From assembly GCA_020725625.1 (NCBI GenBank), contig DYET01000069.1:1-34571 (forward strand): DNA of 34,571 nucleotides. Reading direction: 5' to 3'. The notes beneath the pieces are model-generated. The model did no database searches. It was not told the origin of the DNA and saw only the letters and a list, made by a program, of their open reading frames with translations. Shown here piece by piece: positions 2,658 through 22,987 of the stretch (within the stretch, counting starts at the first letter, position 1; every line of letters begins with the position of its first letter). This DNA is from Desulfovirgula sp. (GTDB taxonomy: Bacteria; Bacillota; Desulfotomaculia; Desulfotomaculales; Desulfocucumaceae). The translations under genes and the position numbers were made by a program.

Positions 2658-4091
2658 GTGGGTTTCGAAGAAGGCAATAAAGCCGCCCTGGATGAGCTGA
2701 ACCAGGTGAAAAACCGGCTGCGGCAACTGGAGGCGGTGTTTGAACACTGCCATGACGGGATCAGCATTGTCGACCGGCACGGCAAGATAGTTTCCTCCAA
2801 CCCCGCCATGCAGAGGCTTTACAACTTGAAGCCGGATGATTACGTGGGCAAAAACGTGGATGATCTGGTGAATGAAGGAATATTCAACAGAAGCGTCTCT
2901 TCCAGGGTGCTGGCCACCGGGCGGCCCTTCACCATTTTGCAGGAGGTAAGATCGGGGGTCAGGTGCCTCACCACGGGGGTCCCCGTCATGGGGGAAGACG
3001 GCCGGGTGGAGATGGTGGTGGTCAACAGCCACGATGTCACCGAACTGTACGCCCTGAAGGAGAGCCTGAGGCAGTCGCAGAAGCTGGCCGGCGGCTACCA
3101 GGCCGAGCTGACCGACATGCGGATCGCCCAGATGCAGAAGGAAGACATCGTGGTGAGAAGCAAGAAGATGCTGGATATCCTGGACCTGGCCCGGAGGCTG
3201 GCGGCGGTGGATACCACCGTGCTGATTGTCGGCGAGTCCGGGTGCGGGAAAGAGGTGGTGGCCACCCTGCTGCACAGGGCCAGCCCCCGCCGGTCGGAAA
3301 AATCCTTCATCAAGGTGAACTGCGGGGCGATTCCCCGGGATTTGCTGGAAGCCGAGCTCTTCGGGTACGAATATGGCGCTTTTACCGGGGCCGCCAAGGA
3401 GGGCAGGCCCGGGCTGTTCGAGCTGGCCGACGGCGGCAGCATTTTCCTGGACGAGGTGGGCGAGCTGCCGCTGGACCTGCAGGTGAAGCTCCTTCGGGTG
3501 CTTCAGGAGAAGGAGTTTAAGAGAATTGGCGGATCAAAGGTGGTCCGGGTTGATGTCAGGGTAATCGCCGCCAGCAACAGGAACCTGCAGGATCTGGTGA
3601 ACCAGGGAAAGTTCAGGGAGGACCTTTACTACCGGCTGAACGTGGTGCCCCTGAAGGTGCCGCCCCTGCGGGAGCGCAAGGAGGACATAGTGGCCCTGGC
3701 CCAGCACTACGTGCGGCACTTCAACCGCAGGTACGGCTTTGAAAAAGTGCTCTCGGCCGAGCTGATAGACGTTATGGAAAGCTACCACTGGCCGGGCAAC
3801 GTCCGCGAACTGGTCAACCTGGTGGAGAGAATGGTGGTCACCAGCAAGGGAAACATCCTGGGAGCGGAGGAATTTCCGCTGGACACGGCCGCCCCGAACC
3901 TCCTGCAGGCAGGAGGGGGTTGCATTCCCAGGGGAGTGAACATCCATGAGGTCCTGAGTGAAACTGAAAAAAACGTAATTTTCAGCGTCCTGCAGAACAG
4001 CCGGAGCACCGCCAGCGCCGCCAGAAGCCTGGGTATCAGCAGGGCCACCCTGGCAAGAAAAATGCGGAAATACGGGATTAGGAGGCGGTAA
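2658..4091 (+). CDS. Sigma-54-dependent transcriptional activator (PAS-AAA+-Fis HTH)
   Basis: A 477-residue enhancer-binding protein. Residues about 20-125 form a PAS-like sensor domain and about 125-150 a helical linker. The AAA+ domain follows: Walker A GESGCGKE near residue 192, the sigma-54-contacting GAFTGA loop near 240, and Walker B SIFLDEVGE near 260. A Fis-type helix-turn-helix ends the protein (ASAARSLGISRATLARKM). There is no receiver domain, so it probably senses a ligand through PAS. The GTG start is chosen because GGGGG sits 8 bases upstream and the nearby ATG is out of frame. It lies between two -24/-12 promoters, so it very likely switches on both the left carboxyltransferase operon and the right catabolic operon, perhaps in response to nicotinate or a related pyridine (inference). 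Confidence 0.93.
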   Translation: MGFEEGNKAALDELNQVKNRLRQLEAVFEHCHDGISIVDRHGKIVSSNPAMQRLYNLKPDDYVGKNVDDLVNEGIFNRSVSSRVLATGRPFTILQEVRSGVRCLTTGVPVMGEDGRVEMVVVNSHDVTELYALKESLRQSQKLAGGYQAELTDMRIAQMQKEDIVVRSKKMLDILDLARRLAAVDTTVLIVGESGCGKEVVATLLHRASPRRSEKSFIKVNCGAIPRDLLEAELFGYEYGAFTGAAKEGRPGLFELADGGSIFLDEVGELPLDLQVKLLRVLQEKEFKRIGGSKVVRVDVRVIAASNRNLQDLVNQGKFREDLYYRLNVVPLKVPPLRERKEDIVALAQHYVRHFNRRYGFEKVLSAELIDVMESYHWPGNVRELVNLVERMVVTSKGNILGAEEFPLDTAAPNLLQAGGGCIPRGVNIHEVLSETEKNVIFSVLQNSRSTASAARSLGISRATLARKMRKYGIRRR

Positions 4092-4212: not shown

Positions 4213-4227
4213 TGGCATCCTTTTTGC
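4213..4227 (+). promoter_or_regulatory. Sigma-54 (-24/-12) promoter for the catabolic operon
   Basis: TGGCAT (4213-4218), five bases, then TTGC (4224-4227): correct GG-to-GC spacing. It lies 75 bases before the ATG of the aldehyde dehydrogenase gene and directly downstream of the sigma-54 activator gene. Genes follow on the same strand with short gaps to at least 23578, so this may drive a very long operon. Confidence 0.7.
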
Positions 4228-4301
4228 GTCAACATACTTCCAGGCGGATAGATGCCGGCCCGCAGACAAAAATATTTAAGCCGGAAAAGGAGTGGTTGGA
4301 C

Positions 4302-5801
4302 ATGCAGCCGGGCGTCCCGGTACTGAAGAACTACATCGGCGGGGAATGGGTTCCCTCAAAAGCGAAGGATTTCCTTGAAATCAGAAACCCTGCCACGGAC
4401 GAGGTTATTTCATTGTACCCGCTTTCGCTGCCGGAAGAGGTTGACGCGGCGGTGGCCGCCGCCAGGAAGGCCTTCCAGGGGTGGAGGAATACGCCCGTTC
4501 CCAGGCGGGTTAAGTTGATGTATAAGCTGCGCTACAAAATGGAGGAGCGCGCCAGGGAACTGGCCAGGATAATCACCCTTGAGCACGGCAAAACCTACGA
4601 GGAGTCGCTGCAGGAAATGGGGCGTTGCCTGGAATACGTCGAGGACGCCTGCACAGTCACCGAAACCATGCGGGGAGCTTACACCGAGGACATAGCCGGC
4701 GGGGTGGACGAATACTACATAAGGGAGCCCCTAGGGGTATTCGTCATTCTGCCCCCCTTCAACTTCCCCGCCATGATCGCCTCGTACTTTGTATGGGCCG
4801 TGGCCTGCGGCAACACGGTGGTGGTCAAGCCCAGCAAGTACTGCCCGAACACCATGATCGAAATCGCCAAGCTGGTTGAAGAGTGCGGCTTCCCTGCGGG
4901 AGTGGTGAACGTCGTCAACGGCAGCGGGGCTGAGGCCGGAAACAGGCTGATCACCCATCCCGACGTAGCCGGGGTCACCTTTGTGGGATCGTCGTCCGCC
5001 GGCCTGAAAATATACCAGGCTGCCTGCGCCCACGGCAAGAGGGCCCAGTGCCAGGGAGGGGCCAAAAACCACCTGGTGGTCATGGAGGACGCGCAGCTTG
5101 ACGGCGGGGTTGTTCGGAATATTATCAACTCGTGCTTCGGCCACGTCGGTGAGAGGTGCTTCGCCGGGTCAAACATCCTGGTGATGGAATCGGTTTACGA
5201 GGAGTTCAAGGAAAAGTTTCTGGAGGCCGCCCGCCGGCTGAAGCTGGGTTACGGCTTCGATGAAGGAGTAACCCTGGGGCCGGTGGTGGACAGGGAACAC
5301 CTGAACGGGCTTTTGAAGGAAATTGAAAACGGAGTCCGGGAGGGGGCCAGGCTTCTTCTGGACGGCAGAAACGCCAGGGTCGAGGGCTATCCCAACGGCT
5401 GCTTTTTGGGCCCCACCATTTTCGAGGCGGAGCCCGGGATGCGCATTTTCGAGGAGGAGGTTTTCGGGCCGGTAAGGTGCCTGAAGAAGGTGAAGAGCCT
5501 CGGGGAGGCCGTCTCCATCATAGACCGGAACAAGTACGGACATACCGCCGTCATATACACCGAAACCGGGAAATATGCCCGGGAGTTCATCCGCCGGGTC
5601 AACACCGGCCAGGTTGGGGTAAACATCGGCACGCCCGCCCCGATTGCCTTTTATCCCGTGGGCGGCAGGAAGATTTCCGGTTTCGGGTCTACCCGGGGGC
5701 GCGCGGCCGATGCCGTGGATTTCTATACCGACAAGAAAGTGGTGGTCTGCCAGTGGCTTAAGTCCATCGATCTGGGCAAGGACGACAGCTTTGTGTGGTA
5801 A
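4302..5801 (+). CDS. CoA-acylating aldehyde dehydrogenase, methylmalonate-semialdehyde dehydrogenase type
   Basis: A 499-residue aldehyde dehydrogenase of the MmsA/IolA branch, which oxidises 2-carboxy aldehydes with NAD+ and CoA and loses the free carboxyl as CO2. Visible are the cofactor region LPPFNFPAMI and VVKPSKYCPNT, TFVGSSSAG, QGGAKNHLVVMEDA and the catalytic Cys about residue 286 in GHVGERCFAGS. The usual general-base Glu of hydrolytic ALDHs is replaced by the MmsA-type QGGAKN. The start at 4302 has AAAAGGAG 9 bases upstream; an in-frame codon at 4173 lies before the promoter and is rejected. The gene directly precedes ena, whose product is 2-formylglutarate, an alpha-carboxy aldehyde like methylmalonate semialdehyde. 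I infer that it makes glutaryl-CoA, CO2 and NADH. Confidence 0.85.
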   Translation: MQPGVPVLKNYIGGEWVPSKAKDFLEIRNPATDEVISLYPLSLPEEVDAAVAAARKAFQGWRNTPVPRRVKLMYKLRYKMEERARELARIITLEHGKTYEESLQEMGRCLEYVEDACTVTETMRGAYTEDIAGGVDEYYIREPLGVFVILPPFNFPAMIASYFVWAVACGNTVVVKPSKYCPNTMIEIAKLVEECGFPAGVVNVVNGSGAEAGNRLITHPDVAGVTFVGSSSAGLKIYQAACAHGKRAQCQGGAKNHLVVMEDAQLDGGVVRNIINSCFGHVGERCFAGSNILVMESVYEEFKEKFLEAARRLKLGYGFDEGVTLGPVVDREHLNGLLKEIENGVREGARLLLDGRNARVEGYPNGCFLGPTIFEAEPGMRIFEEEVFGPVRCLKKVKSLGEAVSIIDRNKYGHTAVIYTETGKYAREFIRRVNTGQVGVNIGTPAPIAFYPVGGRKISGFGSTRGRAADAVDFYTDKKVVVCQWLKSIDLGKDDSFVW

Positions 5802-5898
5802 ACCGGCGGTCGGCCCTCAGCCGTCGGAATACAGGAGACCGGGGTCGGCGGGGGCGAAGGCAGCTATTTAAGATTAGTTTTAGGGAGATGATGTAAAG

Positions 5899-7065
5899 GT
5901 GGCTTCCTTGGCCATAACCAATATCGGGACCATTGTCAGCGGGGACATGAACAAACCCGTTTTGGAAGGGGACACCATCCTGGTGGCGGACGGGAAGATA
6001 GAAAGCGTCGGGAACGCCGGCCTGCTGAAAGGGGTGAAGGTGGACCGCCTGGTTGACGCCGTAGGCTCCACAGTGATACCCGGGCTCATCGACTCCCACG
6101 CCCACCCGGTCCTGGGCGACTTCACACCCCGGCAGAAGACCCTGGATTACCTGGACAGTTCGGTGCACGGGGGTGTGACCACCATGATTTCGGCGGGCGA
6201 GCCCCATACCCCCGGCAGGCCCAAGGACCCGGCGGGAACCAAGGCCCTCGCCCTTCTGGCTTTCAAGTCCTTTAAAAACTTCAGGCCCTGCGGCCTGAAA
6301 GTGCATGCCGGAGCCCTGATTCTTGAGAAGGGGCTGCAGGAAAAGGACTTCGCCGAACTCGCCGGGGAAGGGGTCTGGCTGGTGGGGGAAGTGGGCCTGG
6401 GGAGCATAAAAACCCCGGAGGAAGCCGCGCCCATGGTTCAGTGGGCAAAGAAGTACGGCATGAAGGTGGCCATGCATACCGGCGGAACGTCCATTCCGGG
6501 AAGTTCGACGGTAACCGCCGAAATGGTCCTGAAGGTCAATCCGACCCTGGTCTCCCACATCAACGGCGGCACCACCGCCATTCCGCCGGAGGAGGTTGAC
6601 AGGCTGGTGGACGGCTGCGACCTGCCGCTGGAAATCGTTCAGTGCGGCAACCCCAGGGTGGCCGACTATGTAGCCAGGCGCCTTAACGAAAAGGGACAAT
6701 TGCACAGGATTGTCATCGGCAACGATTCCCCGTCGGGCACCGGCATAATACCCCTGGGCATCTTGAGGACCATTGTTCAGCTTTCCTCCATGTCGCAGAT
6801 TCCCGCGGAAAAGGCCGTGGCCATGGCCACCGGAAACACCGCCCGGGTTTTCGGGCTCAACACTTCGGTAATCGCTCCCGGCAGGGAAGCGGACCTGGTG
6901 ATTATCGACGCCCCGCTGGGATCGGTGGGCGACGACGCCCTAAAGGCCGTTGAAGCCGGCGACCTTCCCGGGGTTTCAATGGTCATCATCGACGGGATGA
7001 TCAGGGTTATGGCCAGCAGGAACACTCCCCCGGCCAGGCGCCAAGCGAAAGTAAGTGAGGTCTAA
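5899..7065 (+). CDS. ena: Enamidase (6-oxo-1,4,5,6-tetrahydronicotinate amidohydrolase)
   Basis: A 388-residue cyclic amidohydrolase that opens the reduced pyridone ring and releases ammonia, giving 2-formylglutarate. The sequence agrees along its length with my recollection of Eubacterium barkeri enamidase: TTMISAGEPHTPGRPKD, KVHAGALILEKGL, MHTGGTSIPGSSTVTA, GNDSPSGTGIIPLGILR and a C-terminal SRNTPPA. Metal ligands fit: His67 and His69 in DSHAHP, the Glu in LVGEVGLG, the His in MHTGG and VSHINGG, and the Asp in GNDSPSG. Start is GTG behind GGGAGATG. It lies 23 bases before hnr, whose product is its substrate. Confidence 0.92.
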   Translation: MASLAITNIGTIVSGDMNKPVLEGDTILVADGKIESVGNAGLLKGVKVDRLVDAVGSTVIPGLIDSHAHPVLGDFTPRQKTLDYLDSSVHGGVTTMISAGEPHTPGRPKDPAGTKALALLAFKSFKNFRPCGLKVHAGALILEKGLQEKDFAELAGEGVWLVGEVGLGSIKTPEEAAPMVQWAKKYGMKVAMHTGGTSIPGSSTVTAEMVLKVNPTLVSHINGGTTAIPPEEVDRLVDGCDLPLEIVQCGNPRVADYVARRLNEKGQLHRIVIGNDSPSGTGIIPLGILRTIVQLSSMSQIPAEKAVAMATGNTARVFGLNTSVIAPGREADLVIIDAPLGSVGDDALKAVEAGDLPGVSMVIIDGMIRVMASRNTPPARRQAKVSEV

Positions 7066-7088
7066 ACAGTCACCCGGGAGGGGAATCC

Positions 7089-8639
7089 ATGGTTGAGATA
7101 GACAGAGAAAGCTGCAAGGGCTGCGGGGTTTGCGAGCAGAATTGCCCCACCGGTGCGATAACAGTGATCGACCGCAAGGCCGTGGCGGACGAAAAGTGCG
7201 TAAACTGCGGCGTCTGCATGCGGGTATGCAAGTTCGGCAGCATAAGCCGCCCGGCCGAAATGGAGGCGGGAGCAGTAAAGTGCCCGTCGTGCCCGGTGCA
7301 GTGTGAAATAAAACCCGGTTTTTACGGGGCCTGCCGGCGGTTCATCAACACCGGGGGGGTGCTTTTGAGGAGCAGGCCGCTGGTAACGGAGCCCGCCTAC
7401 AATTCCAGGCGCAAGCCGTACCTGGAACGTCCGCTGATCACCGGCGTCGGGGCCGGAACCACATACCCCTGCCTGCGCCCCGCTCCTCATATAGTTATGG
7501 ACACGGTGGACGGAATTGACGTGGTCACCGTGGTCACCGAAGCGCCGCTCAGCTACAGCGGTGTCAAGGTCAAAATCGACACCAACTTTTTTATCGGGGA
7601 AGAGGGGGCCAGAGTGAGAAGGTGCGGCCAGGTGGTCGGCATGGTGGAAACCGAGGAATACGGTTCCAAGATGATTTCCATCGGAGGGGCCAACCTTCTT
7701 ACCGGGGAGTCCGGGTTCATGGTGGCCAGGACAATAGTGGAGATCTGCAACGGCGAGAGGGTCGCCTTAAAGGTGGACAAGGGAGCCAAGCTGGAAATCC
7801 AGGTGGGCAAGCCCCCGGTCGTCAACGGGCAGGTCGACAGCAAGATGAGGGTGGGGTGCGGCAGCGCCACCATCGGGATGTTTGCCCGGCAGCTTGCCGG
7901 GGCTGTGGACGAAGCCATTATCCTGGACCACCACGTGGTGGGCCTGCTTTCCGAACACCTGGCCGGGGAAGACGTGGGGCTCAGGTGGAGCGGGGTGGTG
8001 CCCAACGCCCGGAAAAGCACCCGGGGCCGTTATTTCGGAGAACAAGGCACCGGCTGGGGTGGAACCAGCATTGAAAATCCGAGAGACGCCATCCTGAGAG
8101 TGGACATGAGCGTCGCCTCCCCCGGGATCAAAATTCTGGTTACCGAAACTACCGGCCAGAAAGCGGCCCTGTTTACCGTTACGGCAGAAGGTGAGGTGGA
8201 GGAAATCCCCCTGACCCGGAAGGCCATAGAGGTGGTGGACCTGATCAGGTCCAACTGCGAGGATGCCAGGGTCTCGGCCTTTTTCGTGGGGGGAACCGGG
8301 GGCAGCGCCAGGGCCGGGGTTACCAGCTACCCCATCAGGCTGACCCGGGCAGTCCATGAAGGGGAGGCCAGTCTCACCATAGGCGGGGCACCCACTTGTA
8401 TCCTTCCCGGGGGAGGAATAAACTTCCGGGTAGACGTCGAGAAAACAGTACCCAAAGCCTTTACCTGGGTGCCCACCCCGGCCACCGTGGCCCCGGTGGA
8501 ATACACCATGACCCTGGAGAAATACAGGGAAATTGGTGGGCACGTTGGCAATGCGGTCAGAAAGTCGGATCTGACGGGTAAATACGAGGTTTCGCGCAAG
8601 AAAGAGGATGAGGGTCCGAAAAAAAATAAAACCGGTTAA
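7089..8639 (+). CDS. hnr: 6-hydroxynicotinate reductase, iron-sulfur flavoprotein
   Basis: A 516-residue protein with two N-terminal ferredoxin-type 4Fe-4S motifs (CKGCGVCEQNC and CVNCGVCMRVC, residues about 11-45) and a further Cys group (CPSCPVQC then GAC, residues about 62-84). A long glycine-rich region follows with no transmembrane segment. This architecture fits Hnr of E. barkeri, which reduces 6-hydroxynicotinate to 1,4,5,6-tetrahydro-6-oxonicotinate with reduced ferredoxin. Homology is recalled, not computed, but the tight pairing with ena is the best support. Start ATG with GGGAGGGG 8 bases upstream. The C-terminal tail is lysine-rich and looks disordered. Confidence 0.85.
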   Translation: MVEIDRESCKGCGVCEQNCPTGAITVIDRKAVADEKCVNCGVCMRVCKFGSISRPAEMEAGAVKCPSCPVQCEIKPGFYGACRRFINTGGVLLRSRPLVTEPAYNSRRKPYLERPLITGVGAGTTYPCLRPAPHIVMDTVDGIDVVTVVTEAPLSYSGVKVKIDTNFFIGEEGARVRRCGQVVGMVETEEYGSKMISIGGANLLTGESGFMVARTIVEICNGERVALKVDKGAKLEIQVGKPPVVNGQVDSKMRVGCGSATIGMFARQLAGAVDEAIILDHHVVGLLSEHLAGEDVGLRWSGVVPNARKSTRGRYFGEQGTGWGGTSIENPRDAILRVDMSVASPGIKILVTETTGQKAALFTVTAEGEVEEIPLTRKAIEVVDLIRSNCEDARVSAFFVGGTGGSARAGVTSYPIRLTRAVHEGEASLTIGGAPTCILPGGGINFRVDVEKTVPKAFTWVPTPATVAPVEYTMTLEKYREIGGHVGNAVRKSDLTGKYEVSRKKEDEGPKKNKTG

Positions 8640-8721: not shown

Positions 8722-10965
8722 ATGAGTCTCCGGGTGGTAGGTAAAAACGTAATCAAACCTGATGCCTTGGAAAAGGTCACCGGAAAGGCCCTTTATGCCG
8801 GTGACCTGAAGAGGCCGGGCATGCTGTACGCCAGGGCGGTGCGCAGTCCTTACGCCCACGCCCTTGTTCTCTCCATCGAAACGGAAGGAGCGCTGGCCGT
8901 TCCCGGTGTCGTAGCTGTACTGACGGCCCGGGATATACCCGGTGAAAACCACGTGGGCATGACCGGCAACAAGGACCAGCCTGTGCTGGCCGAGGAGAAA
9001 GTGCGATTTCGCGGAGAGGCGGTGGCGGTGGTCGCGGCGGAGACACCGGCTGCGGCTGAAAAAGGCGTCAGGAAGGTTGCGGTGGAATACCGGGCGCTGC
9101 CGGTGGTGGAGACCGCCGAACAGGGCCTGGATGAAGGGTCGGCACAGGTGTCGGATAAAGGCAACCTTTGCTGGCACAAAAAGGTGGTGCGGGGTGACTG
9201 GGAAAAGGCGGTAAAAGAAGCTGCCGTGGTGGTAACCGGTGAATACAGGACGCAAATGGTGGAACACGCCTACCTGGAAACCGAGGCAGTCCTGGCCGAG
9301 CCGCAGGGCGACGGGGTTTTGGTCTGGTCCACCACTAAAAGCGTTCACCTGGACCGGAAGGAAATTGCCAGGGTGCTGGGCCTTCCCCTGGAGGGCGTTC
9401 ACGTAGTCGCCCCCCATATCGGAGGGAGTTTTGGCGGCAAGTCCGACCTGACCCTGAATTGCATGGCGGCCCTCCTGTGCCTGAAAACGGGGCGGCCGGT
9501 GACCATGACCTTGTTGAGGGAAGAGAGCATGCAGGTGTCCACCAAGAGGCACGCCTGCGTTATGAAATACACCCACGCCGCGGATGCCCGGGGCAACCTG
9601 ACGGCGGTCAGGCTGGAGGTGATCGGGGACGCCGGCGCTTACATAGATTATACCCCGGCGGTTATGCAGCGCATGATTATTCACGGGGCGGGACCATACC
9701 GCGTGCCGAACGTTTGGCTGGAAGGGCGGGGGGTGCTCACCAACAACCCCGTAGCCGGAGCTATGCGGGGCTTCGGTGTGCCCCAGGTCGTCTTTGCCTG
9801 CGAACGCCAGATGGACCGCCTGGCTGAAAAACTGGGCATTGATCCTGTAGAGATAAGGCTTAGAAATGTCCTGGAAAAAGGTGACTTACTGGCTACAGGC
9901 CAGCAGGTGGACCATGTCGTTGGCCTCAGGGAAGGAATAATCAAGGCGAGGGAAATCATGGACAGTTGTTCACCCCTCCCCGCGCGGCCAAACGAAAAAA
10001 CTGCCTGGGGCATAGCCTGCTTTCATTACGGAAACGGGAGAACCGGCATGAACGACCCTGGGGTGGCCACGGTCAGGCCGCTGGATGACGGCAGGGTACA
10101 TGTGGCCGTCGGATCGCCGGACATAGGCCAGGGGTCCAATACAATCCTGGCCCAGATAGCGGCTGAAGCGCTGGGCTTGGATATAGGCCAGATTGAACTT
10201 GTTTCCGCCGACACGAGGCTGACCCTGGATTCGGGCACCACTTCGGGGACCAGGCTGACTGCCGTTGTGGGCCGGGCCGTCAAGGATGCGGCCGAATGCT
10301 GGCGCAGCCTACTTCTTGGAGCGGCGGCGGCCTTGCTGAACACAGAAGCCGGCGAACTGCGGCTGTCGGCCGGCCCGGGGGGCGGGGCCGTGATTGCCGG
10401 CCCCAAGGGTGCCCTGAGCCTCGGGGAGGTATTCCGGCGCGCCCGCCAGGCCAATATCAACCTGGAGGTTACCACCAGGTTCGACCCGCCGACCACTCCC
10501 CTGGACGATGAGAACGGGCAGGGGAGTCCTTACGGCGTGTATACCTATGGTGTACAGCTGGTTGGCCTGGGCGTCAATGTTTACACAGGACAGGTCGGCC
10601 TGCATAAAGTGGCCTGCATATTAAACGTCGGCCGGGTAATCAATCCCGTTCTCTTCGAAGGGCAGGTTGAAGGAGGCACGGCCATGGGGATCGGCTATGC
10701 CCTTTTTGAGGAGGTAAAGCTCAAAGAAGGCAGGGTATTGAACGACAATTTCAACAGCTACCTTATTCCCACCGTCCTCGATGTGGCGCCGGTTGAATGC
10801 CTGGTACTTCCCATCAGTGACCAAAGGGGGCCTTTCGGGGCCAGCGGTATTGGCGAGCCCTCAACGATCCCCGCGGCGGCTGCCATTGCCAACGCCGTGT
10901 CGCGTGCCACAGGCGTGCAGTATTATAATCTCCCGTTAAGTCTGGAAGAGGTTATTTCCGGCTGA
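8722..10965 (+). CDS. Molybdenum hydroxylase large subunit, xanthine dehydrogenase family (fused form)
   Basis: A 747-residue molybdopterin-binding subunit. Visible are the aldehyde-oxidase a/b hammerhead start (ALEKVTGKALYAGDL), GGSFGGKSD and AGAMRGFGVPQ at the Mo site, DIGQGSNT for cofactor binding, and the catalytic Glu in GIGEPSTIPAAAAIA. Such enzymes add water-derived OH to a carbon next to a ring nitrogen. It resembles the split NdhL+NdhM pair downstream, but in one chain. No FAD or 2Fe-2S partner is adjacent; the only such genes in the window are ndhF and ndhS. It may share them, or hydroxylate a second pyridine derivative. The ATG has AGGAGGT about 12 bases upstream. Confidence 0.9.
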   Translation: MSLRVVGKNVIKPDALEKVTGKALYAGDLKRPGMLYARAVRSPYAHALVLSIETEGALAVPGVVAVLTARDIPGENHVGMTGNKDQPVLAEEKVRFRGEAVAVVAAETPAAAEKGVRKVAVEYRALPVVETAEQGLDEGSAQVSDKGNLCWHKKVVRGDWEKAVKEAAVVVTGEYRTQMVEHAYLETEAVLAEPQGDGVLVWSTTKSVHLDRKEIARVLGLPLEGVHVVAPHIGGSFGGKSDLTLNCMAALLCLKTGRPVTMTLLREESMQVSTKRHACVMKYTHAADARGNLTAVRLEVIGDAGAYIDYTPAVMQRMIIHGAGPYRVPNVWLEGRGVLTNNPVAGAMRGFGVPQVVFACERQMDRLAEKLGIDPVEIRLRNVLEKGDLLATGQQVDHVVGLREGIIKAREIMDSCSPLPARPNEKTAWGIACFHYGNGRTGMNDPGVATVRPLDDGRVHVAVGSPDIGQGSNTILAQIAAEALGLDIGQIELVSADTRLTLDSGTTSGTRLTAVVGRAVKDAAECWRSLLLGAAAALLNTEAGELRLSAGPGGGAVIAGPKGALSLGEVFRRARQANINLEVTTRFDPPTTPLDDENGQGSPYGVYTYGVQLVGLGVNVYTGQVGLHKVACILNVGRVINPVLFEGQVEGGTAMGIGYALFEEVKLKEGRVLNDNFNSYLIPTVLDVAPVECLVLPISDQRGPFGASGIGEPSTIPAAAAIANAVSRATGVQYYNLPLSLEEVISG

Positions 10966-10994
10966 ACTAAATATAGAAAGAGGGGGACCGGAAA

Positions 10995-12902
10995 GTGACA
11001 TCAGTGACCTGGAAAGAAGTGTGGCATGACCGGCCGCTTTACCAGAGAACGGCGGCAGTGGTGGGCATAATACTGACAATTTTTCACATATATACCGCCC
11101 TGTTCGGGTGCTTCGACGCGCTGTTGCAGCGGTCCGTCCACCTGGGCCTGGGCCTGGTGCTGGTGTTTCTGGTATATAACTCAAAAAAGGATAAAAAAAC
11201 CATCGGCCTGCTGGACCTGGTTATGGCTGTTTCGGTTATTGTGGTCATGGGATACCTGATCGCCAACTATGACTGGATAACGGTTGAACGCTTTACCCTG
11301 ATCAGCTCACTGTACTGGTACGAAATTGTACTTAGCATAGCAACCATAATTCTGGTGCTTGAGGCAACGCGGCGGGTGGTCAGCACCGGTCTGTTCTACA
11401 TAACCCTGGCGTTTTTGGCCTACCCGTACGCAGCCCCTTACCTTCCAGGCGTACTGTACGCCACACCCGTTCACTGGACTGCAGTGCTTGACTTCAATTA
11501 CCTCTCCCTGGGGGGTATTTTCGGCATCCCCCTTGGCGTATCGGCCACCGACATCGCCCTGTTTATTATATTCGGGGCTATCCTGATGCGGAGCGGCGGG
11601 TCATTTTTAATCAGCAACGTGGCCACGGTCCTTTCCGGCCGTGCAGTGGGCGGGACGGCCAAGGTGGCGGTGGTGGCCAGTTCTCTGATGGGCACCATCT
11701 CCGGCAGCGGGACAGCCAACGTGGCCACCACGGGCAGCGTAACCATTCCGATGATGAAAAAAGCCGGTTATCAGCCGCACTTCGCCGCTTCGGTGGAGGC
11801 CGTGGCTTCCACCGGGGGGCAGATCATGCCCCCCGTTATGGGTGCCGCCGCTTTTGTCATGGCGGCCTTCAGCGGCATACCCTACTCGGAAATCATAATC
11901 TACGCCCTTTTCCCGGCCATCCTTTACTACTTCAGCCTTTTTCTCACCGTGGACTTGGAAGCCAGGCGACTTAAACTCCCCGGCCAGGAGCCGGAAGTTA
12001 CCCTGAAGGAAACCCTGCGGGACTACGGCCATATGATTATTCCCATAGTCGTCCTGGTCTATTTCCTTGTTGCCGGCTACACCCCCAGGATGGCCGGCGG
12101 CCTGGGCATCATCACAGCCCTGCTGGCCTGCCAGCTGCGTTCGACCACCCGGATGGGCCTGCCGGCCATATTCGCCGCCCTGGAGGACGGGGCCAAGGGT
12201 ATGCTTATCGTCGTCGTTTCCTGCGCGGCGGCGGGCATAATCGTCGGCACGGTGGACCTGACCGGGCTCGGGCAACGCCTGGGAACCGCTTTTATTACCC
12301 TGGCCGGCGGAAGCCTGTTCCTTGCTCTCCTTTTGGGGATGTTTGTGGCCCTGCTTCTGGGCCTGGGGCTTCCCACCACGCCGGCTTATATCGTCCAGGT
12401 GGCCACGGTCATCCCGGCCCTCATAAAACTGGGCCTGCCCCCGATCGCGGCGCACATGTTCGCCTTTTATTACTCCTGCCTGTCCATTGTTACCCCGCCG
12501 GTGGCGGCGGCGTCCTATACGGCGGCGGCCATTGCCCAATCGGACGGCTGGAAAACGGGCTGGACCGCCGCGCGGCTTGCGCTGGTGGCCTATATCATAC
12601 CATTTATGTTTGCCTTCGACCAATCACTGTTGCTTATCGGTTCCATTCTGGACATCATCATACATACCATTACAGCGCTAATCGGAGTGCTGTTCCTGGC
12701 CGTAGCCTGTGAAGGTTATTTCATGCGCAGGTTGATCTGGTTCGAGAGGGTGGTTTCGGGTATCGCGGCGTTGATGCTGATAGTGCCCAACTGGAAGGTC
12801 AGCATGGCCGGCGGCATCTTGATCGCACTGGTTTTTCTGGCCCAGTTCCGCGGCCGGGGGGCGGCGGACGGAAAATATTCCGCAAAGGGGGTGAAAGGTT
12901 AG
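10995..12902 (+). CDS. TRAP transporter fused permease (4TM-12TM)
   Basis: A 635-residue, strongly hydrophobic protein with many transmembrane segments. A DctQ-like N-terminal part (residues about 1-150) is fused to the DctM-like large permease, as in TAXI-type TRAP systems. Typical blocks include AVVASSLMGTISGSGTANVATTGSVTIPMMKKAGY and MPPVMGAAAFVMA, given here as two short signature regions around residues 225-290. It moves small carboxylates with an ion gradient. A GTG start follows AGAGGGGG. The TAXI binding protein is next (13007). Its position between hydroxylase and decarboxylase genes suggests uptake of an N-heterocyclic carboxylate (inference). Confidence 0.92.
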   Translation: MTSVTWKEVWHDRPLYQRTAAVVGIILTIFHIYTALFGCFDALLQRSVHLGLGLVLVFLVYNSKKDKKTIGLLDLVMAVSVIVVMGYLIANYDWITVERFTLISSLYWYEIVLSIATIILVLEATRRVVSTGLFYITLAFLAYPYAAPYLPGVLYATPVHWTAVLDFNYLSLGGIFGIPLGVSATDIALFIIFGAILMRSGGSFLISNVATVLSGRAVGGTAKVAVVASSLMGTISGSGTANVATTGSVTIPMMKKAGYQPHFAASVEAVASTGGQIMPPVMGAAAFVMAAFSGIPYSEIIIYALFPAILYYFSLFLTVDLEARRLKLPGQEPEVTLKETLRDYGHMIIPIVVLVYFLVAGYTPRMAGGLGIITALLACQLRSTTRMGLPAIFAALEDGAKGMLIVVVSCAAAGIIVGTVDLTGLGQRLGTAFITLAGGSLFLALLLGMFVALLLGLGLPTTPAYIVQVATVIPALIKLGLPPIAAHMFAFYYSCLSIVTPPVAAASYTAAAIAQSDGWKTGWTAARLALVAYIIPFMFAFDQSLLLIGSILDIIIHTITALIGVLFLAVACEGYFMRRLIWFERVVSGIAALMLIVPNWKVSMAGGILIALVFLAQFRGRGAADGKYSAKGVKG

Positions 12903-13006
12903 GCAAAGCGAGCGGCATTGCAGCGCAGAAGGAACCGGAGTTGCTGCGCAGGTCCTTGACCTGGACGGGCAACAGTTTGTCAAAATATTTTACGGGAGGT
13001 CATGGA

Positions 13007-14023
13007 ATGAAAAGGTGGGCGTTTTGTTTAATCAGCGGACTGGCGCTGAGCGCGTTGGTACTGGCGGGTTGCGGCGGCCAGGGCGGCCAGCAGCCGGCGA
13101 AGGACGGCAAAAAGGCTGATTCGGGCCAGGCCGCATCCAAGTATGAAATCACCTGGGGCACGGCCCCGGCCGGCGGGGCCTGGCAAGTTTTGGGCACCGC
13201 CATGCTTGAGGATGTGACCAAGGCCAATCCCAATTTAACGGGATCGACCATGCCCGTGGGCGGCGCCGCCAACATCATGGGGGTGCACGAGGGCAAACTC
13301 AAGGTTGCCTTCTCGTTGTCGGCCACTGTCGGGGACGCGTGGGAAGGCAAGGACTTTTTCAAGGACAAGGGCCAAATCAAGAGTATCCGTGCCCTGGCCA
13401 CGCTTTTTCCGGAGCCTACGCAAATAGTGGTGATGGCCAACTCCGGCATTGATTCGCTTGAGCAGCTCAAAGGCAAGAAAGTGTCTCCGGGACCTAAAGG
13501 CTCCGCGGTTGAGCAGGACACCAGGAGGGTTTTAAACGCCTACGGCATGTCGTACAATGACCTGCAGGCGGCCTTTCTGAGCTTTGAAGAAGCCGCCCAG
13601 CAAATGCTCGACGGGCACCTGGACGCAATTTGTTACGGCGCCATGCTCTACCCCGCTCCGAACATAGTAAACGTCAGCTCCCAGAAGTCAATTAAGATGC
13701 TGTCTCTGTCCGACGATAAGATTGCGGCCATAGTTAGGGACAACAAGGGTACGGAGCCGTATACCCTCCCTGCGGGGTCGTACAAGGGCGTTGATTACCC
13801 GGTCAAGGGCATCGCCACCACCTGCCTGATTATCTGCCGTGAGGATATGCCCGAGGATGTGGCCTACAGCATTGTGAAGACTATAGCGGAGAATTTTGAC
13901 CGCTACGCCACCGTGACCAAGGCAATGACCCTGGCCAAGAAGGAGAACATGGGCAAGGAACTGGGCATTCCCATGCACCCCGGCGCCCTGAAGTATTATA
14001 AAGAAAAGGGATGGGTCAAGTAA
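13007..14023 (+). CDS. TAXI-family TRAP transporter solute-binding lipoprotein
   Basis: A 338-residue lipoprotein. The signal peptide has lipobox LAGC with Cys22. After a Gly/Gln/Lys-rich linker comes the TAXI fold: WGTAPAGGAWQVLGTA near the start of the mature protein, NIMGVHEGKLKVAFS, and GPKGSAVEQDTRRVLNAYG. The in-frame ATG at 13007 is preferred over the out-of-frame ATG at 13002; GGGAGG lies 8 bases upstream. It delivers its ligand to the fused permease. The ligand is unknown; a pyridinecarboxylate fits the operon. Confidence 0.92.
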   Translation: MKRWAFCLISGLALSALVLAGCGGQGGQQPAKDGKKADSGQAASKYEITWGTAPAGGAWQVLGTAMLEDVTKANPNLTGSTMPVGGAANIMGVHEGKLKVAFSLSATVGDAWEGKDFFKDKGQIKSIRALATLFPEPTQIVVMANSGIDSLEQLKGKKVSPGPKGSAVEQDTRRVLNAYGMSYNDLQAAFLSFEEAAQQMLDGHLDAICYGAMLYPAPNIVNVSSQKSIKMLSLSDDKIAAIVRDNKGTEPYTLPAGSYKGVDYPVKGIATTCLIICREDMPEDVAYSIVKTIAENFDRYATVTKAMTLAKKENMGKELGIPMHPGALKYYKEKGWVK

Positions 14024-14058
14024 CGGGAGGCAAACATAGATAAGGCGTGCCTGGCGGT

Positions 14059-14080
14059 GGGGGCGGCCGGTCCCGCCCCC
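14059..14080 (+). other. Strong GC hairpin after the TAXI gene
   Basis: Arms GGGGGCGG (14059-14066) and CCGCCCCC (14073-14080) pair perfectly around a 6-base loop. There is no T-tract, so it is more likely an mRNA-stabilising or processing stem inside the operon than a terminator. The remaining 120 bases to the next gene show no clear promoter. Confidence 0.45.
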
Positions 14081-14204
14081 TTCCGGGCGGCACCGACTGG
14101 ACGGGCGCTGATGAGGCAGGGCGGTGCCGATGTTTCTGAAGTAAAAGGCCTATGCAAAATGACTCTTTACAGGAGACAGAAGCAGGACAGGCGGAGGCAT
14201 GGAA

Positions 14205-15071
14205 ATGTTAAGTGAGGCCGGGAAAATCCAGTTGACCGTGCTGGTGGAAAACAGCGTCGCCTTTCCATTTGCCCCGGACAGTGTTCCGGGAGTGTTGGGC
14301 GAACACGGGCTGGCTGTTTTAATTGACAACGGGGAGGAACAAGTGCTCTACGACACCGGCCGGGGGCGGACGCTGGTGGGCAACCTGGCCCAGTGCGGCT
14401 TTAACATTGAAAATATCAACAAGGTTGTTATCAGCCACGGGCACCTGGATCACACCGGGTCGCTGAAGTCCTTCCTGCAGGAAAGGAAAAAGAAAACCGA
14501 GGTATACTGCCACGAGGGGATTTTTAAAGACAGGTACGGAAAAAGGGACGAGAAATATAACAGGATAGGCATTCCTTTTACCAGAAGCGACCTGGTGGAA
14601 GCCGGCGCGATATTCAGGCCGGTGTCCGCCGTCCAGGAAGTCGGCCGGGGAATATTGGTATCCGGGCCAATCCCCCGGGCTCACCGCTGGGAGGAGAACC
14701 GGGGAAACTTCTTCGTGCGCGACGGAGAACAATTCGTTCCCGATGATTTTGAAGATGATATGGCTGTTTTTATAGATGTTGGCGCCGCTCCCGCAGTTCT
14801 GACCGGGTGCGGTCATGCGGGCGTGATCAATACGCTGGAATATGCCCTGAAAATCTTTGGCAGTAAAAGAATACCTGCCCTGATAGGCGGGTTGCACATG
14901 GAGGGGGTGCCGCCGGATCGGGCCGGACTTACCATCAGGCACCTGGGTAATTTTGTTATAGACAGGCTTATAGTGGGCCACTGTACCGGTTTTGGTTTTA
15001 TGTGCAGCCTGCGGCAGGAGTTCGGGGACAAAGTGACGCCTTTGACCGCCGGCAGGCAGATCCGGTTATAG
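14205..15071 (+). CDS. Metallo-beta-lactamase-fold hydrolase, COG1237 type
   Basis: A 288-residue MBL-fold protein. The zinc motif HGHLDH is in KVVISHGHLDHTGSLK near residue 82; later ligands are likely in TGCGHAGVINT and VGHCTGFG. The start LTVLVENSVA..GEHGLAVLID matches the family that includes the methanogen 7,8-dihydropterin-6-methyl-aminobenzene phosphate synthase, but that name gives little functional information here. ATG 14205 is chosen because GGAGG lies 7 bases upstream; the ATG at 14199 would be too close. It sits between the transporter and UbiD genes. A hydrolytic role on a ring or ester is possible; the substrate is unknown. Confidence 0.8.
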   Translation: MLSEAGKIQLTVLVENSVAFPFAPDSVPGVLGEHGLAVLIDNGEEQVLYDTGRGRTLVGNLAQCGFNIENINKVVISHGHLDHTGSLKSFLQERKKKTEVYCHEGIFKDRYGKRDEKYNRIGIPFTRSDLVEAGAIFRPVSAVQEVGRGILVSGPIPRAHRWEENRGNFFVRDGEQFVPDDFEDDMAVFIDVGAAPAVLTGCGHAGVINTLEYALKIFGSKRIPALIGGLHMEGVPPDRAGLTIRHLGNFVIDRLIVGHCTGFGFMCSLRQEFGDKVTPLTAGRQIRL

Positions 15072-15107
15072 CCGCTTGTTGATCACGTGTACGGAGGTGA
15101 CGCTGAA

Positions 15108-15338
15108 ATGAAAATGTTTAACTTTACCTGCCCGGAGTGCAATAGGTTTTTTTACGGAGACGTTACCCTGGTTAACCTGAAAGTACCCATACACTGTCCC
15201 GGCTGCGACAAGTACTACCGCTTCGAAGAGTACTCAAGGATCTTTGAGAGCCGCAGGGACACCACCCTGGCCAGGCTCAACAAGCCTATTACCGGGGAAA
15301 ACATGTTCGAAATAATCTATCTGCCCGAAAAGGCTTAA
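15108..15338 (+). CDS. Small zinc-ribbon protein next to UbiD
   Basis: A 76-residue protein with two Cys pairs, CPEC (residues about 8-11) and CPGC (about 29-32), forming a probable zinc ribbon. The ATG at 15108 has GGAGGTG 8 bases upstream; a GTG at 15087 is rejected. It is immediately upstream of the UbiD-type gene. Some UbiD/UbiX hydroxyarylic acid decarboxylases have a small third subunit (subunit D) with Cys pairs, and this may play that part. The similarity is in size, cysteines and location only. Confidence 0.65.
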   Translation: MKMFNFTCPECNRFFYGDVTLVNLKVPIHCPGCDKYYRFEEYSRIFESRRDTTLARLNKPITGENMFEIIYLPEKA

Positions 15339-15406
15339 AAACAGAGTGGCGTTTCTGTAAAACCCGGTTCCTGTCGCCGCTGGCAATGAACGAAGGAGAA
15401 TGTCCA

Positions 15407-16795
15407 ATGAAAGATCTGAAGTCTTTCCTGAAAGATTTAAGAAGCCTATATCCAAAGGAAATAGTGGATTTTAACGACCCGGTTGATCCCGGTGCTTACG
15501 AGGCCTCCGCTATAATGGAGCTTTATGAAAGGGAGCAAGAATACCCGCTGGTTATATTCAATAACCCGCTAAACCTGAGGCGGGAAAAAACCGGCTTTAA
15601 GCTTCTGTTCAACGCTTTTTCCACCATGGAAAAACAGGCTGTGGCGCTGGGAGCGGAAAAACCGCATAGAAAGTTGATTATGGAACAATACTACCGGCTT
15701 TCCCTTGACAAGAGGCCCGTAGTCAGGGTGGAAAGCGCCGGTGCGCCCATAAAAGAATTAATCTGGCGGGACAAGGAAGTGGACTTATACCACTTCCCAA
15801 TTCCGAGAATTAATGAAATGGACGGCGGGCCGTACCTGACCCCGGCCGTTGTGGCCAGGGACGGAGAGACCGGCAGGTACAACATTTCTTGGAACAGGGC
15901 CATGGTTATAGACCGGAATCACCTGGGATTGTGGATGTCGCCGCGGCACTTATGGAGTCTGTTCTCAAAATACGAACAAAAAGGGGAGGCCTTGCCCATA
16001 GCCTTAGTGCTGGGGCATCACCCGGCGTTTTTCCTGGTTAGCGCCGGTCTGACGAAGATTTCCGACGACGAGTACGAGGTGGCCGGGGGCGTAATGGGAG
16101 AAAGCGTGCGGGTGGCGGAGTCCGAGAGCTTTGGCGGGGATTTGCTGGTTCCGGCAGACGCCGAATTTGTTATTGAGGGTGTGATACTGCCCGACCGCAG
16201 GTCCGTGGAGGGTCCATTCGGCGAGTTTACCGGTTATTCCGGGCCCCAGCGGATTTCCTGGCTGGTGGAGGTAAGGGCGGTGACCGCCCGCAGGGGGGGA
16301 ACCATAATCAGCGTTTTCGGGGCCCACCAGGATAACCTCTACGCTCACTTGCCCATCCAGGCCGATATATACCAGAATCTCAAGAATATCATGCCGGCTG
16401 TAAAAGACATAAGCTGGGTAGATTCCGGCGGCCCGCTGAACCTGATCATCAGCATGACCAAGAAAACCGAGGGCGAGCCTGTAAGGGCGGCCATGGCCGC
16501 AATGAGCCTGAGCAACTTTATCAAGCACGTGATTGTGGTGGATGACGACATCGACCCGGGCAACCTGAAGCAGGTCATGTGGGCTTGGTCCACCAGGTCC
16601 CAGGCCGACAAGGACGTCAATATAATCAAGCGGACCCAGGGCCAGGTCCTGGACCCTTCATTAACCGATGAAATCCTGGGGTCAGCAATGATTATCGATG
16701 CCACCAGGCCTGTGGGACAGCCATTTTCTGTCAAGGCACAGCCGCCGGAGGAAATTGTCCGGTCAATGGTGAAAAAAATAAAGTTAGGAACGTAA
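15407..16795 (+). CDS. UbiD-family prenylated-FMN (de)carboxylase
   Basis: A 462-residue UbiD-type enzyme. The prFMN region is visible as YNISWNRAMVIDRNHLGLW, and the catalytic Glu pair in VEGPFGEFTGYSGP near residues 267-272. Members reversibly remove or add CO2 on (hydroxy)aromatic acids and need a UbiX partner, which is the next gene. Start ATG 15407 with AAGGAG 8 bases upstream is preferred over 15386. In this operon the likely substrates are pyridine acids: 6-hydroxynicotinate is the aza analogue of 4-hydroxybenzoate, with OH and COOH para. The direction in vivo is not shown. Confidence 0.9.
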   Translation: MKDLKSFLKDLRSLYPKEIVDFNDPVDPGAYEASAIMELYEREQEYPLVIFNNPLNLRREKTGFKLLFNAFSTMEKQAVALGAEKPHRKLIMEQYYRLSLDKRPVVRVESAGAPIKELIWRDKEVDLYHFPIPRINEMDGGPYLTPAVVARDGETGRYNISWNRAMVIDRNHLGLWMSPRHLWSLFSKYEQKGEALPIALVLGHHPAFFLVSAGLTKISDDEYEVAGGVMGESVRVAESESFGGDLLVPADAEFVIEGVILPDRRSVEGPFGEFTGYSGPQRISWLVEVRAVTARRGGTIISVFGAHQDNLYAHLPIQADIYQNLKNIMPAVKDISWVDSGGPLNLIISMTKKTEGEPVRAAMAAMSLSNFIKHVIVVDDDIDPGNLKQVMWAWSTRSQADKDVNIIKRTQGQVLDPSLTDEILGSAMIIDATRPVGQPFSVKAQPPEEIVRSMVKKIKLGT

Positions 16796-16834
16796 AAGGG
16801 CGGCGGTATATACGGGCCGCTGGAGGGATGGCCT

Positions 16835-17416
16835 TTGCGCGTAGTAGTAGCAATTACCGGGGCCACAGGGGCTGTTTACGGGATTACTCTGCTTAAGGCC
16901 CTGGCCGGGGCCGGGGTTGAGACACACCTGGTTATAAGCAGGTGGGCCGGGGAGACAATCAGGCTGGAGACCGATTTTTCTCCTGAACAGGTGGCTAAAA
17001 TGGCTTTCCGCTGTTACTCCCCGGACGACCAGGGAGCCCCGCCTGCCAGCGGGTCTTTCAGGCACGGCGGAATGGTGATTGCGCCCTGCAGCATGAAAAC
17101 CCTGTCCGCAGTTGCCTCCGGGTATGCCGACAACCTGATTTCGAGGGCCGCGGACGTAACGCTGAAGGAAAAGCGTCCCCTGATCTTGCTACCCAGGGAA
17201 ACCCCGCTAAGCGTCATCCACCTTGAAAACATGATCCGGGTGGCCCGGGCGGGAGCGGTAATTATGCCGCCGATGCCTTCGTTTTACCACCGGCCGGAGA
17301 CCATCGGCGACATCGTCAACCAGACCGTCGGCCGCGTGATGGACCTGCTGGGGATTGAGAATTCGATGGTCCGGCGCTGGGATGGCCGGGCACTAAAAAT
17401 TCAGGAAAAGGAATGA
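16835..17416 (+). CDS. ubiX: UbiX-family flavin prenyltransferase
   Basis: A 193-residue flavoprotein: VAITGATGAVYGITLLKAL at the N-terminus (FMN-binding Rossmann loop), MVIAPCSMKTLSAVASGYADNL in the middle, RPLILLPRETPLS and an AVIMPPMPSFYH segment. UbiX joins dimethylallyl phosphate to FMN to make the cofactor for UbiD, encoded 40 bases upstream. The TTG start at 16835 is supported by GGAGGG 7 bases before it; the ATG at 16828 is in another frame. Confidence 0.93.
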   Translation: MRVVVAITGATGAVYGITLLKALAGAGVETHLVISRWAGETIRLETDFSPEQVAKMAFRCYSPDDQGAPPASGSFRHGGMVIAPCSMKTLSAVASGYADNLISRAADVTLKEKRPLILLPRETPLSVIHLENMIRVARAGAVIMPPMPSFYHRPETIGDIVNQTVGRVMDLLGIENSMVRRWDGRALKIQEKE

Positions 17417-17481: not shown

Positions 17482-18357
17482 TTGCTGCAGCCTTTTAATT
17501 ACCACCAACCGTCGTCTATGGAGGAGGCCCTGTCCCTGATGGCCACCCTGCCCGGGCCGAAAAAGGTGCTGGCGGGGGGAACCGACCTGGTCCCCGCCCT
17601 GCGCCGGGGGGAGCTGTCCCCGGCCCACGTGGTCAGCCTGAAGCAGTTGGCCGAAATGAGAGAAATAAAAATAAAAGAAGGCCGCGTGCACATCGGGGCG
17701 CTGGTTACTTTCAGCCAGCTGGCCGAGTTCCGCCCGTTCAGGGGGCCCCACAACCTGCTGGCCGAGGCCGCCCTCCAGGTGGGCGGGCCCCAGATACGCA
17801 GCCAGGGAACCATCGGCGGCAATATCGTCAACGCCTCGCCGGCCGGCGACCTGCTGCCTCCCCTCGTGGCGCTGGAAGCCGAGGTAAGGCTGTGCCGGGC
17901 GGGAGGCGAACGGGTATTGCCGCTGGATGAGTTTTTAAAAGGGCTGGGGCGGACCTGCATCGAGCAGGAAGAAATACTTACAGAGGCGGTCTTTCCCGTC
18001 CTTCCCGGACAGGCAGCCAGCAGCTTCGTCAAGCTGGGGAGGCGCAACAGCCTGGCCATCAGCCGGATCAGCATGGCGGCCATTCTTGTTCCCGGCGCAA
18101 CGGGGATTATCGAGGAAGCCCGCCTGGCCCTAGGAGCCGTTGCGCCCAAGCCCGTCAGGGTCCCCCGGGCTGAGGCCCTGCTGAAGGGGCGGCGGCCCGA
18201 TCCCAGCTTGCTGGAAGAAGCTGTCACCGCGGTGGCGGAAACCGTAGCCGCAACACTGGGCGACCGGCCCTCGGCTCCCTACAAGAAGGTCGCAGTGAGG
18301 GGAGTGGCCCGGGAGGCCCTGATTAAAGCAGCGCCCCAGTTTGGCTGTAAGCTGTAA
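17482..18357 (+). CDS. ndhF: Nicotinate dehydrogenase FAD subunit
   Basis: A 291-residue CoxM/XdhB-type FAD subunit. FAD loops are visible as LAGGTDLVPAL (residues about 32-42) and GTIGGNIVNASPAGDLLPPLVAL (about 109-131). Its TTG start follows GGGGAGG by 7 bases. Gene order FAD, 2Fe-2S, large Mo, medium Mo matches the four-subunit nicotinate dehydrogenase of E. barkeri, which hydroxylates nicotinate at C6 and passes electrons through 2Fe-2S and FAD to NADP+. The specific substrate rests on the hnr-ena context and the split Mo subunit. Confidence 0.85.
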   Translation: MLQPFNYHQPSSMEEALSLMATLPGPKKVLAGGTDLVPALRRGELSPAHVVSLKQLAEMREIKIKEGRVHIGALVTFSQLAEFRPFRGPHNLLAEAALQVGGPQIRSQGTIGGNIVNASPAGDLLPPLVALEAEVRLCRAGGERVLPLDEFLKGLGRTCIEQEEILTEAVFPVLPGQAASSFVKLGRRNSLAISRISMAAILVPGATGIIEEARLALGAVAPKPVRVPRAEALLKGRRPDPSLLEEAVTAVAETVAATLGDRPSAPYKKVAVRGVAREALIKAAPQFGCKL

Positions 18358-18423
18358 GCTATTTAGTTACCGGTTGTTGGTTGTTGTTTATTGGCTCAAG
18401 GTAATTTATTAGGGGGTACTGTA

Positions 18424-18912
18424 GTGAAGCCCTTCAGATTTACAGCTACGATTAACGGCCGTCCGGTTGACCTTCCGGTGAATCCCCACCGCCGGCTGCT
18501 GGACGTGATCCGGGACGATCTGGGCCTGACCGGCACCAAGGAGGGCTGCGGCGAAGGGGAGTGCGGCGCCTGCACGGTTTTGTTGAACGGCCGCCCGGTC
18601 AACGCCTGTCTGGTTCTGGCACCCGAAGCGGCGGGATGCGAAATCACCACCATTGAGGGAGTGGCCCCGGAAGGCGGCCTTCATCCAATCCAGGAGGCCT
18701 TTTTGGAGGCCGGGGCGGTTCAGTGCGGTTACTGCACGCCCGGCATGATTCTGGCGGCCAAGGCACTGCTGGACAAGGACCTCAGCCCCACCGACCAGGC
18801 CATAAAGACCGCCGTTTCCGGCAACCTCTGCCGGTGCACCGGCTACATAAAAATTATCGAAGCCGTAAGGCTGGCCGCCGCCAAGCTGTCCGGGGAGGGG
18901 GACGCGGTATGA
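18424..18912 (+). CDS. ndhS: Nicotinate dehydrogenase 2Fe-2S subunit
   Basis: A 162-residue CoxS-type protein with the plant-ferredoxin motif EGCGEGECGACTVLLNG (residues about 40-56) and the second cluster motifs CGYCTPGM and CRCTGY in the C-terminal half. It carries electrons from the Mo site to FAD. GTG 18424 is chosen for the AGGGGG 7 bases upstream; a TTG at 18391 would add 11 unlikely residues. The stop overlaps the next ATG (ATGA). Confidence 0.9.
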   Translation: MKPFRFTATINGRPVDLPVNPHRRLLDVIRDDLGLTGTKEGCGEGECGACTVLLNGRPVNACLVLAPEAAGCEITTIEGVAPEGGLHPIQEAFLEAGAVQCGYCTPGMILAAKALLDKDLSPTDQAIKTAVSGNLCRCTGYIKIIEAVRLAAAKLSGEGDAV

Positions 18913-22930: not shown

Positions 22931-22987
22931 CCCGCCCATCTTTAAACTCCCGGGACCTTGTATTTTATCGCATGGGGAGGAGACAAA

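Follow-up and report, generated by a model that had tools for sequence, protein, structure and literature searches.

Gene organization of the nicotinate cluster

The window analyzed here is a whole contig of 34,571 nucleotides (DYET01000069.1; G000:C45) from Desulfovirgula sp. (assembly GCA_020725625.1), a member of the Peptococcaceae group whose 3.15-Mb genome is 97% complete. It carries an operon for the anaerobic breakdown of nicotinate, and the gene in focus, at 4302 to 5801, encodes an enzyme of the methylmalonate-semialdehyde dehydrogenase (MMSDH) type. Judged from sequence and gene context, this single enzyme quite probably replaces the B12-dependent lower pathway of Eubacterium barkeri and yields glutaryl-CoA. 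Starting from 2658, the + strand encodes in order a sigma-54 activator, the dehydrogenase, enamidase (Ena), 6-hydroxynicotinate reductase (Hnr), an inserted block, the nicotinate dehydrogenase subunits NdhFSLM, a sodium symporter, and a PF06684 protein. The core features are as follows:

2658–4091, + strand: sigma-54 activator with PAS, AAA+, and Fis-type helix-turn-helix (HTH) parts (PF00158, 8.3e-69; PF00989; HTH)
4213–4228, + strand: sigma-54 (-24/-12) promoter TGGCATCCTTTTTGCG, 73 nt 5′ of the dehydrogenase start codon
4302–5801, + strand: predicted MMSDH-family (CoA-acylating, decarboxylating) dehydrogenase (TIGR01722, 462.6 bits)
5899–7065, + strand: Ena (2VUN, the E. barkeri enamidase, E 5e-163; 64% identity to E. 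barkeri)
7089–8639, + strand: Hnr with a 4Fe-4S N terminus (57% identical to its E. barkeri counterpart; related genes at 80 named loci)
17482–18357, + strand: NdhF, FAD subunit of nicotinate dehydrogenase (PF00941/PF03450; 35% to E. barkeri NdhF)
18391–18912, + strand: NdhS, [2Fe-2S] subunit of nicotinate dehydrogenase (PF01799/PF00111; 56% to E. barkeri)
18723–20207, + strand: NdhL, large Mo subunit (PF02738; 47% to E. barkeri); the called start lies too far upstream and overlaps NdhS
20204–21211, + strand: NdhM, medium Mo subunit (PF20256; 55% to E. barkeri)

The open reading frames (ORFs) at 4302–5801, 5899–7065, and 7089–8639 follow each other with short gaps, and their family and identity scores agree with an earlier note on this DNA, which had read them as an MMSDH-type dehydrogenase, ena, and hnr in one direction. 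With ndhFSLM, hnr, and ena all present, the gene set is that of an E. barkeri-type upper pathway. The cluster of E. barkeri (L102) contains the same genes and the PF06684 gene, and it shares the upper pathway to 2-formylglutarate. It differs in continuing with Hgd and the B12-dependent 2-methyleneglutarate mutase (Mgm), whereas the source genome lacks mgm and has the MMSDH-type dehydrogenase instead. The E. barkeri fermentation, reportedly described by Alhapel et al. in 2006, uses a B12 radical mutase; to our knowledge, it is the only pathway for anaerobic nicotinate breakdown in which each enzyme has been worked out.

The promoter was missed by a scan with the strict sigma-54 consensus and recovered by one anchored on the GG/GC dinucleotides; it has two mismatches to the consensus and keeps both invariant dinucleotides. 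Its position, 73 nt in front of the dehydrogenase, makes this gene the probable start of the nicotinate operon. At similar places before the dehydrogenase, the element recurs in genomes G001, G007, G095, and G079, is weak in G065, and was not found in G064 by the anchored scan. In loci of the mutase class, it stands before the first gene after a related activator. In both pathway classes, activators of the same cluster stand in front of the nicotinate genes; the activator at 2658–4091 likely regulates the operon.

Proposed route to glutaryl-CoA

By homology to characterized enzymes, NdhFSLM would hydroxylate nicotinate, Hnr would reduce 6-hydroxynicotinate, and Ena would open the ring, turning 1,4,5,6-tetrahydro-6-oxonicotinate into 2-formylglutarate and NH3. 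The dehydrogenase would then convert 2-formylglutarate, NAD+, and CoA to glutaryl-CoA, CO2, and NADH. Herein, the aldehyde would be oxidized via Cys286, the adjacent carboxylate would leave as CO2, and the acyl group would pass to CoA. Glutaryl-CoA is expected to flow into two enzymes encoded on other contigs: Acd, a glutaryl-CoA dehydrogenase, and a decarboxylase that depends on biotin and probably pumps sodium. The genes for both are present, and the enzymes would lead to glutaconyl-CoA, crotonyl-CoA, and finally acetyl-CoA.

Family and active site of the dehydrogenase

The dehydrogenase exceeds the TIGR01722 cut-off for MMSDHs (448.5 bits) and is the sole MMSDH-family gene of its genome, the next match in the genome search scoring 18 bits. 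Its sequence matches to solved MMSDHs are at about 40%, and its fold is taken as fixed on that account. With the family members MmsA, IolA, and ALDH6A1, it shares this fold, the catalytic Cys, the neighboring Arg, the lack of a general-base Glu, and the predicted α-carboxy aldehyde chemistry. The catalytic C286, the preceding R285, and R108 are retained, and the R285–C286 pair is invariant. Q251 occupies the position of Glu268, so that the general base of hydrolytic aldehyde dehydrogenases (ALDHs) is missing, as in acylating MMSDHs. Work on the MMSDH of Bacillus subtilis is said to assign handling of the substrate carboxylate to the two Arg positions (108 and 285 here), and the missing Glu reportedly lets CoA take the acyl group.

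The differences from the family lie in the pocket, the phylogeny, and the nicotinate operon context. A Trp and a Phe (positions 162 and 453 here) occur in 23 of 23 canonical MMSDHs; they are Tyr and Val in one clade of nicotinate-cluster enzymes (clade A) and Ser and Leu in a second (clade B). Position 456 is Arg throughout clade A, Arg or Lys in clade B, and neither in the 23 canonical sequences. Hence, Y162, V453, and R456 of the window enzyme all depart from the canonical MMSDH. From our alignment to the ALDH2 motif, we take these positions to be 177, 465, and 468 of ALDH2, which makes the replaced residues the equivalents of Trp177 and Phe465. The exchange of Trp for Tyr and of Phe for Val, together with a gained Arg, is what a bulkier dicarboxylate would be expected to require. 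A widened pocket with an extra positive charge would thus fit 2-formylglutarate, with its carboxyethyl side chain, better than methylmalonate semialdehyde, with its methyl group.

In the tree, a branch supported at 100/98 parts 13 cluster enzymes from the 13 MMSDHs used as references. Both clades fall outside canonical MmsA/IolA/ALDH6A1, with the window enzyme in clade A; support for A and B as a single group is 88/40. This phylogeny, for which the earlier note had called, hence sets the enzyme apart from the valine and inositol MMSDHs, and the linkage to nicotinate genes described below is constant. An ordinary MMSDH of valine, inositol, or β-alanine metabolism, placed by chance beside the nicotinate genes, would also pass the general model TIGR01722. 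This identity is very improbable and was rejected by the tree, by the changed pocket residues, and by the nicotinate linkage in all 19 genomes with such an enzyme.

Clade B includes the dehydrogenases of G095 and G079. In the cultured Acididesulfobacillus acetoxydans (L056, 383–4493), the gene for the clade B enzyme is split in two by intervening ORFs, one of which is transposase-like.

Two lower pathways among hnr-bearing genomes

An Hnr alignment used in a genome-wide scan matched 80 named loci (L032–L111), whose genes were then clustered. Two main kinds of neighborhood emerge: one holds Hgd, methyleneglutarate mutase, and the other genes of the E. barkeri set, and the second an MMSDH-type dehydrogenase. 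The dehydrogenase and the mutase occur together in none of the 80 loci. A clade A or B dehydrogenase is carried by 19 hnr-bearing genomes from several phyla, and in every one of them it adjoins nicotinate genes or the sigma-54 activator of the cluster. Where Hnr contigs are broken, the dehydrogenase piece is located on another contig beside Ena, Ndh, PF06684, or the activator.

Genome searches found mgm in none of these 19 genomes, the source genome included, compared with 19 of 32 further hnr genomes in which both genes were looked for (p = 1e-5, Fisher tests herein overstating independence because the genomes are related). The earlier note had placed the lower-pathway genes of E. barkeri outside the window, which holds in that neither hgd nor mgm of E. 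barkeri has a match there. For hgd, this extends to the other stretches of the source genome that were compared; a complete hgd-mgm-mii-dmd set in that genome was rejected on the absence of mgm, with hgd, hmd, mii, and dmd not searched genome-wide. The pathway class switches at least five times on the Hnr tree. The mutual exclusivity of dehydrogenase and mutase is a consistent pattern that is not statistically closed.

Several hnr genomes (loci L057, L067, L078, and L089), including those of Pelosinus propionicus and Clostridium magnum, contain an Hgd-like gene in the locus and lack mgm, which hints at another, third lower pathway or at excretion of 2-(hydroxymethyl)glutarate.

Downstream of glutaryl-CoA

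A search for glutaryl-CoA dehydrogenase, also proposed in the earlier note, locates Acd of the source genome on contig C128, adjoining a carboxyltransferase and a biotin carrier. The gene is cut by the contig end and scores 421 bits over positions 81–387 (NF045552 cut-off, 470); Acd of the sister genome G001 scores 527 bits and lies above this cut-off. Membrane β subunits of carboxybiotin decarboxylases are encoded elsewhere in the source genome, and the pair of Acd and carboxyltransferase recurs in G001, G007, G064, G065, G079, G095, and G103. The arrangement with a biotin carrier, found in the source and sister genomes, resembles the Acd and glutaconyl-CoA decarboxylase of anaerobes (NF045552; PDB 3MPI, 1PIX). 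It differs in that the source-genome carboxyltransferase is of the propionyl-CoA carboxylase (PCC)/MmdA type, whereas G205 has the GcdA type: there, the gene after Acd matches glutaconyl-CoA decarboxylase A (3GF3, 1PIX; 4e-226).

A GcdA-like carboxyltransferase was dropped as a general marker, as outside the Peptococcaceae group only generic homologues of 44 to 49% appear; Acd was used as the downstream marker for this reason. Of the 19 dehydrogenase genomes, 15 to 16 have Acd-like genes, compared with 2 of 26 genomes carrying mgm (p = 2e-7 when 16 are counted). Because Acd may serve other substrates too, this distribution is support and not proof.

Two further features of the window were considered here:

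1–237, − strand: 5′ fragment of a PCC-type carboxyltransferase gene, divergent (33% over 73 amino acids to a GcdA-like subunit)
30588–32752: ADP-forming CoA ligase pair

About 75 codons from the start of a carboxyltransferase gene are present at the left edge. The earlier note had seen the glutaconyl-CoA decarboxylase family here, and a carboxyltransferase fragment does lie at this edge; its assignment as that decarboxylase was rejected. The full-length orthologue in a sister genome is PCC-β-like, with glutaconyl-CoA decarboxylase the weakest among the matches listed. Glutaconyl-CoA decarboxylase of the source genome is likely encoded on another contig.

The route of Azorhizobium caulinodans is aerobic and proceeds through free glutarate followed by CoA transfer to glutaryl-CoA. 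An analogous course is conceivable here, in which 2-formylglutarate decarboxylates first, spontaneously or by another enzyme, and the dehydrogenase oxidizes glutarate semialdehyde to free glutarate, which a CoA ligase or transferase would activate. The ligase pair of the window and CoA-ligase-like genes near Acd in G064, G079, and G214 would suit this course, as does the passage of the Azorhizobium pathway through glutarate (PMC3511419). It is nevertheless unlikely, as both clades lack the Glu268 equivalent of hydrolytic ALDHs and have the MMSDH Arg–Cys pair, and no CoA transferase or ligase gene is constant in the cluster.

Several observations weigh against direct formation of glutaryl-CoA by the dehydrogenase or against its generality. 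Clade B enzymes score 375 to 400 bits, under the TIGR01722 cut-off, and no longer have Arg141 or, in the NAD site, Lys176. For this more divergent clade, the argument is weaker than for clade A, to which the window enzyme belongs. A phylogeny-corrected pair test of the exclusivity gives p = 0.5 from just one to two informative pairs, and 13 hnr genomes have neither lower pathway. Acd was not found in G200, G201, and G213, and the match in G204 is nearer to acryloyl-CoA reductase than to Acd. Acd could serve other substrates; in the source genome, it ends at a contig edge, and the decarboxylase β subunit is unlinked.

Neighboring genes

The remaining features of the cluster lie between hnr and ndhF and downstream of ndhM:

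8722–17416, between hnr and ndhF: inserted block of a single-chain Mo-hydroxylase, TAXI-TRAP transporter, metallo-hydrolase, UbiD, and UbiX
21418–22896, + strand: sodium/solute symporter (PF00474), kept in the clusters of G001, G007, G065, and G079
22958–23578, + strand: PF06684 'amino acid synthesis' protein, role unassigned (4.9e-75; 56% to the E. barkeri cluster gene)

At this site, the sister genomes G001 and G007 have no such block. In G037 (L024), most of the genes of the block are found ahead of ena-hnr with their order conserved. A possible role of the block is the hydroxylation and decarboxylation of a pyridine dicarboxylate, e.g., quinolinate, to 6-hydroxynicotinate. A second hnr paralogue (55%) of the source genome (L019, G000:C88:15001-35000) has its own Mo-hydroxylase, FAD and FeS subunits, UPF0280-like gene, transporter, and amidohydrolase; this cluster probably acts in the reductive dearomatization of another N-heterocycle. 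Both the extra Mo-hydroxylase, TRAP transporter, UbiD, and UbiX and the second hnr cluster would suit a window cluster that handles a substituted pyridine instead of nicotinate, its dehydrogenase acting on a related formyl-dicarboxylate. We regard this as quite improbable, as G001 and G007 have the dehydrogenase, ena, hnr, and ndhFSLM without the insert, and Ena is 64% identical to a characterized enamidase.

The symporter likely mediates nicotinate uptake. The PF06684 gene is found in 55 of 80 hnr loci; it accompanies hnr/ena in either pathway class and also on alphaproteobacterial plasmids. Three such plasmid hnr clusters (L237–L239) contain hydantoinase/oxoprolinase-type genes, with neither a listed MMSDH nor an annotated enamidase, which suggests a different ring-opening enzyme. 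A UPF0280-family gene occurs in 68 of 80 hnr loci. UPF0280 proteins are relatives of ApbE, a flavin transferase, and Hnr has a covalent flavin; the UPF0280 protein could therefore be the flavinylation factor of Hnr. The window further contains a c-di-GMP-I riboswitch aptamer at 33716–33801 (+ strand; 72.1 bits).

Relation to known pathways and significance

A glutarate proposal for Azorhizobium, mentioned in the earlier note, does exist: PMC3511419, citing Kitts 1992, has its nicotinate pathway run via glutarate. Like the route proposed here, this pathway converts tetrahydro-6-oxonicotinate onward, and PMC3511419 also describes a homologue of the E. barkeri cluster in related Bradyrhizobiaceae. 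Because a glutarate route has been published for this aerobe, the present one is regarded as a variant of a known pathway. No description of an MMSDH-type enzyme acting on 2-formylglutarate appeared in the literature searched, most subscription journals lying outside that search.

The rerouting to glutaryl-CoA by an MMSDH-type enzyme, as put forward in the earlier note, is supported by comparative genomics, with substrate, CoA dependence, and CoA-thioester product being predicted. The broader proposal stands at about even chances: that two MMSDH clades were recruited, once or twice, as decarboxylating, CoA-acylating 2-formylglutarate dehydrogenases, that the resulting B12-free anaerobic route to glutaryl-CoA feeds a sodium-pumping glutaconyl-CoA decarboxylase, and that this branch has been swapped with the mutase branch, in either direction, several times across phyla.

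If true, nicotinate would have a second, simpler anaerobic lower branch that does not need B12 and gains NADH and a CoA thioester in a single step. Nicotinate breakdown would thereby join the route via glutaryl-CoA and crotonyl-CoA through which anaerobes process aromatics. For the textbook MMSDH family, this would mean a new substrate with named residues, and labels that make such genes valine or inositol enzymes would be corrected.

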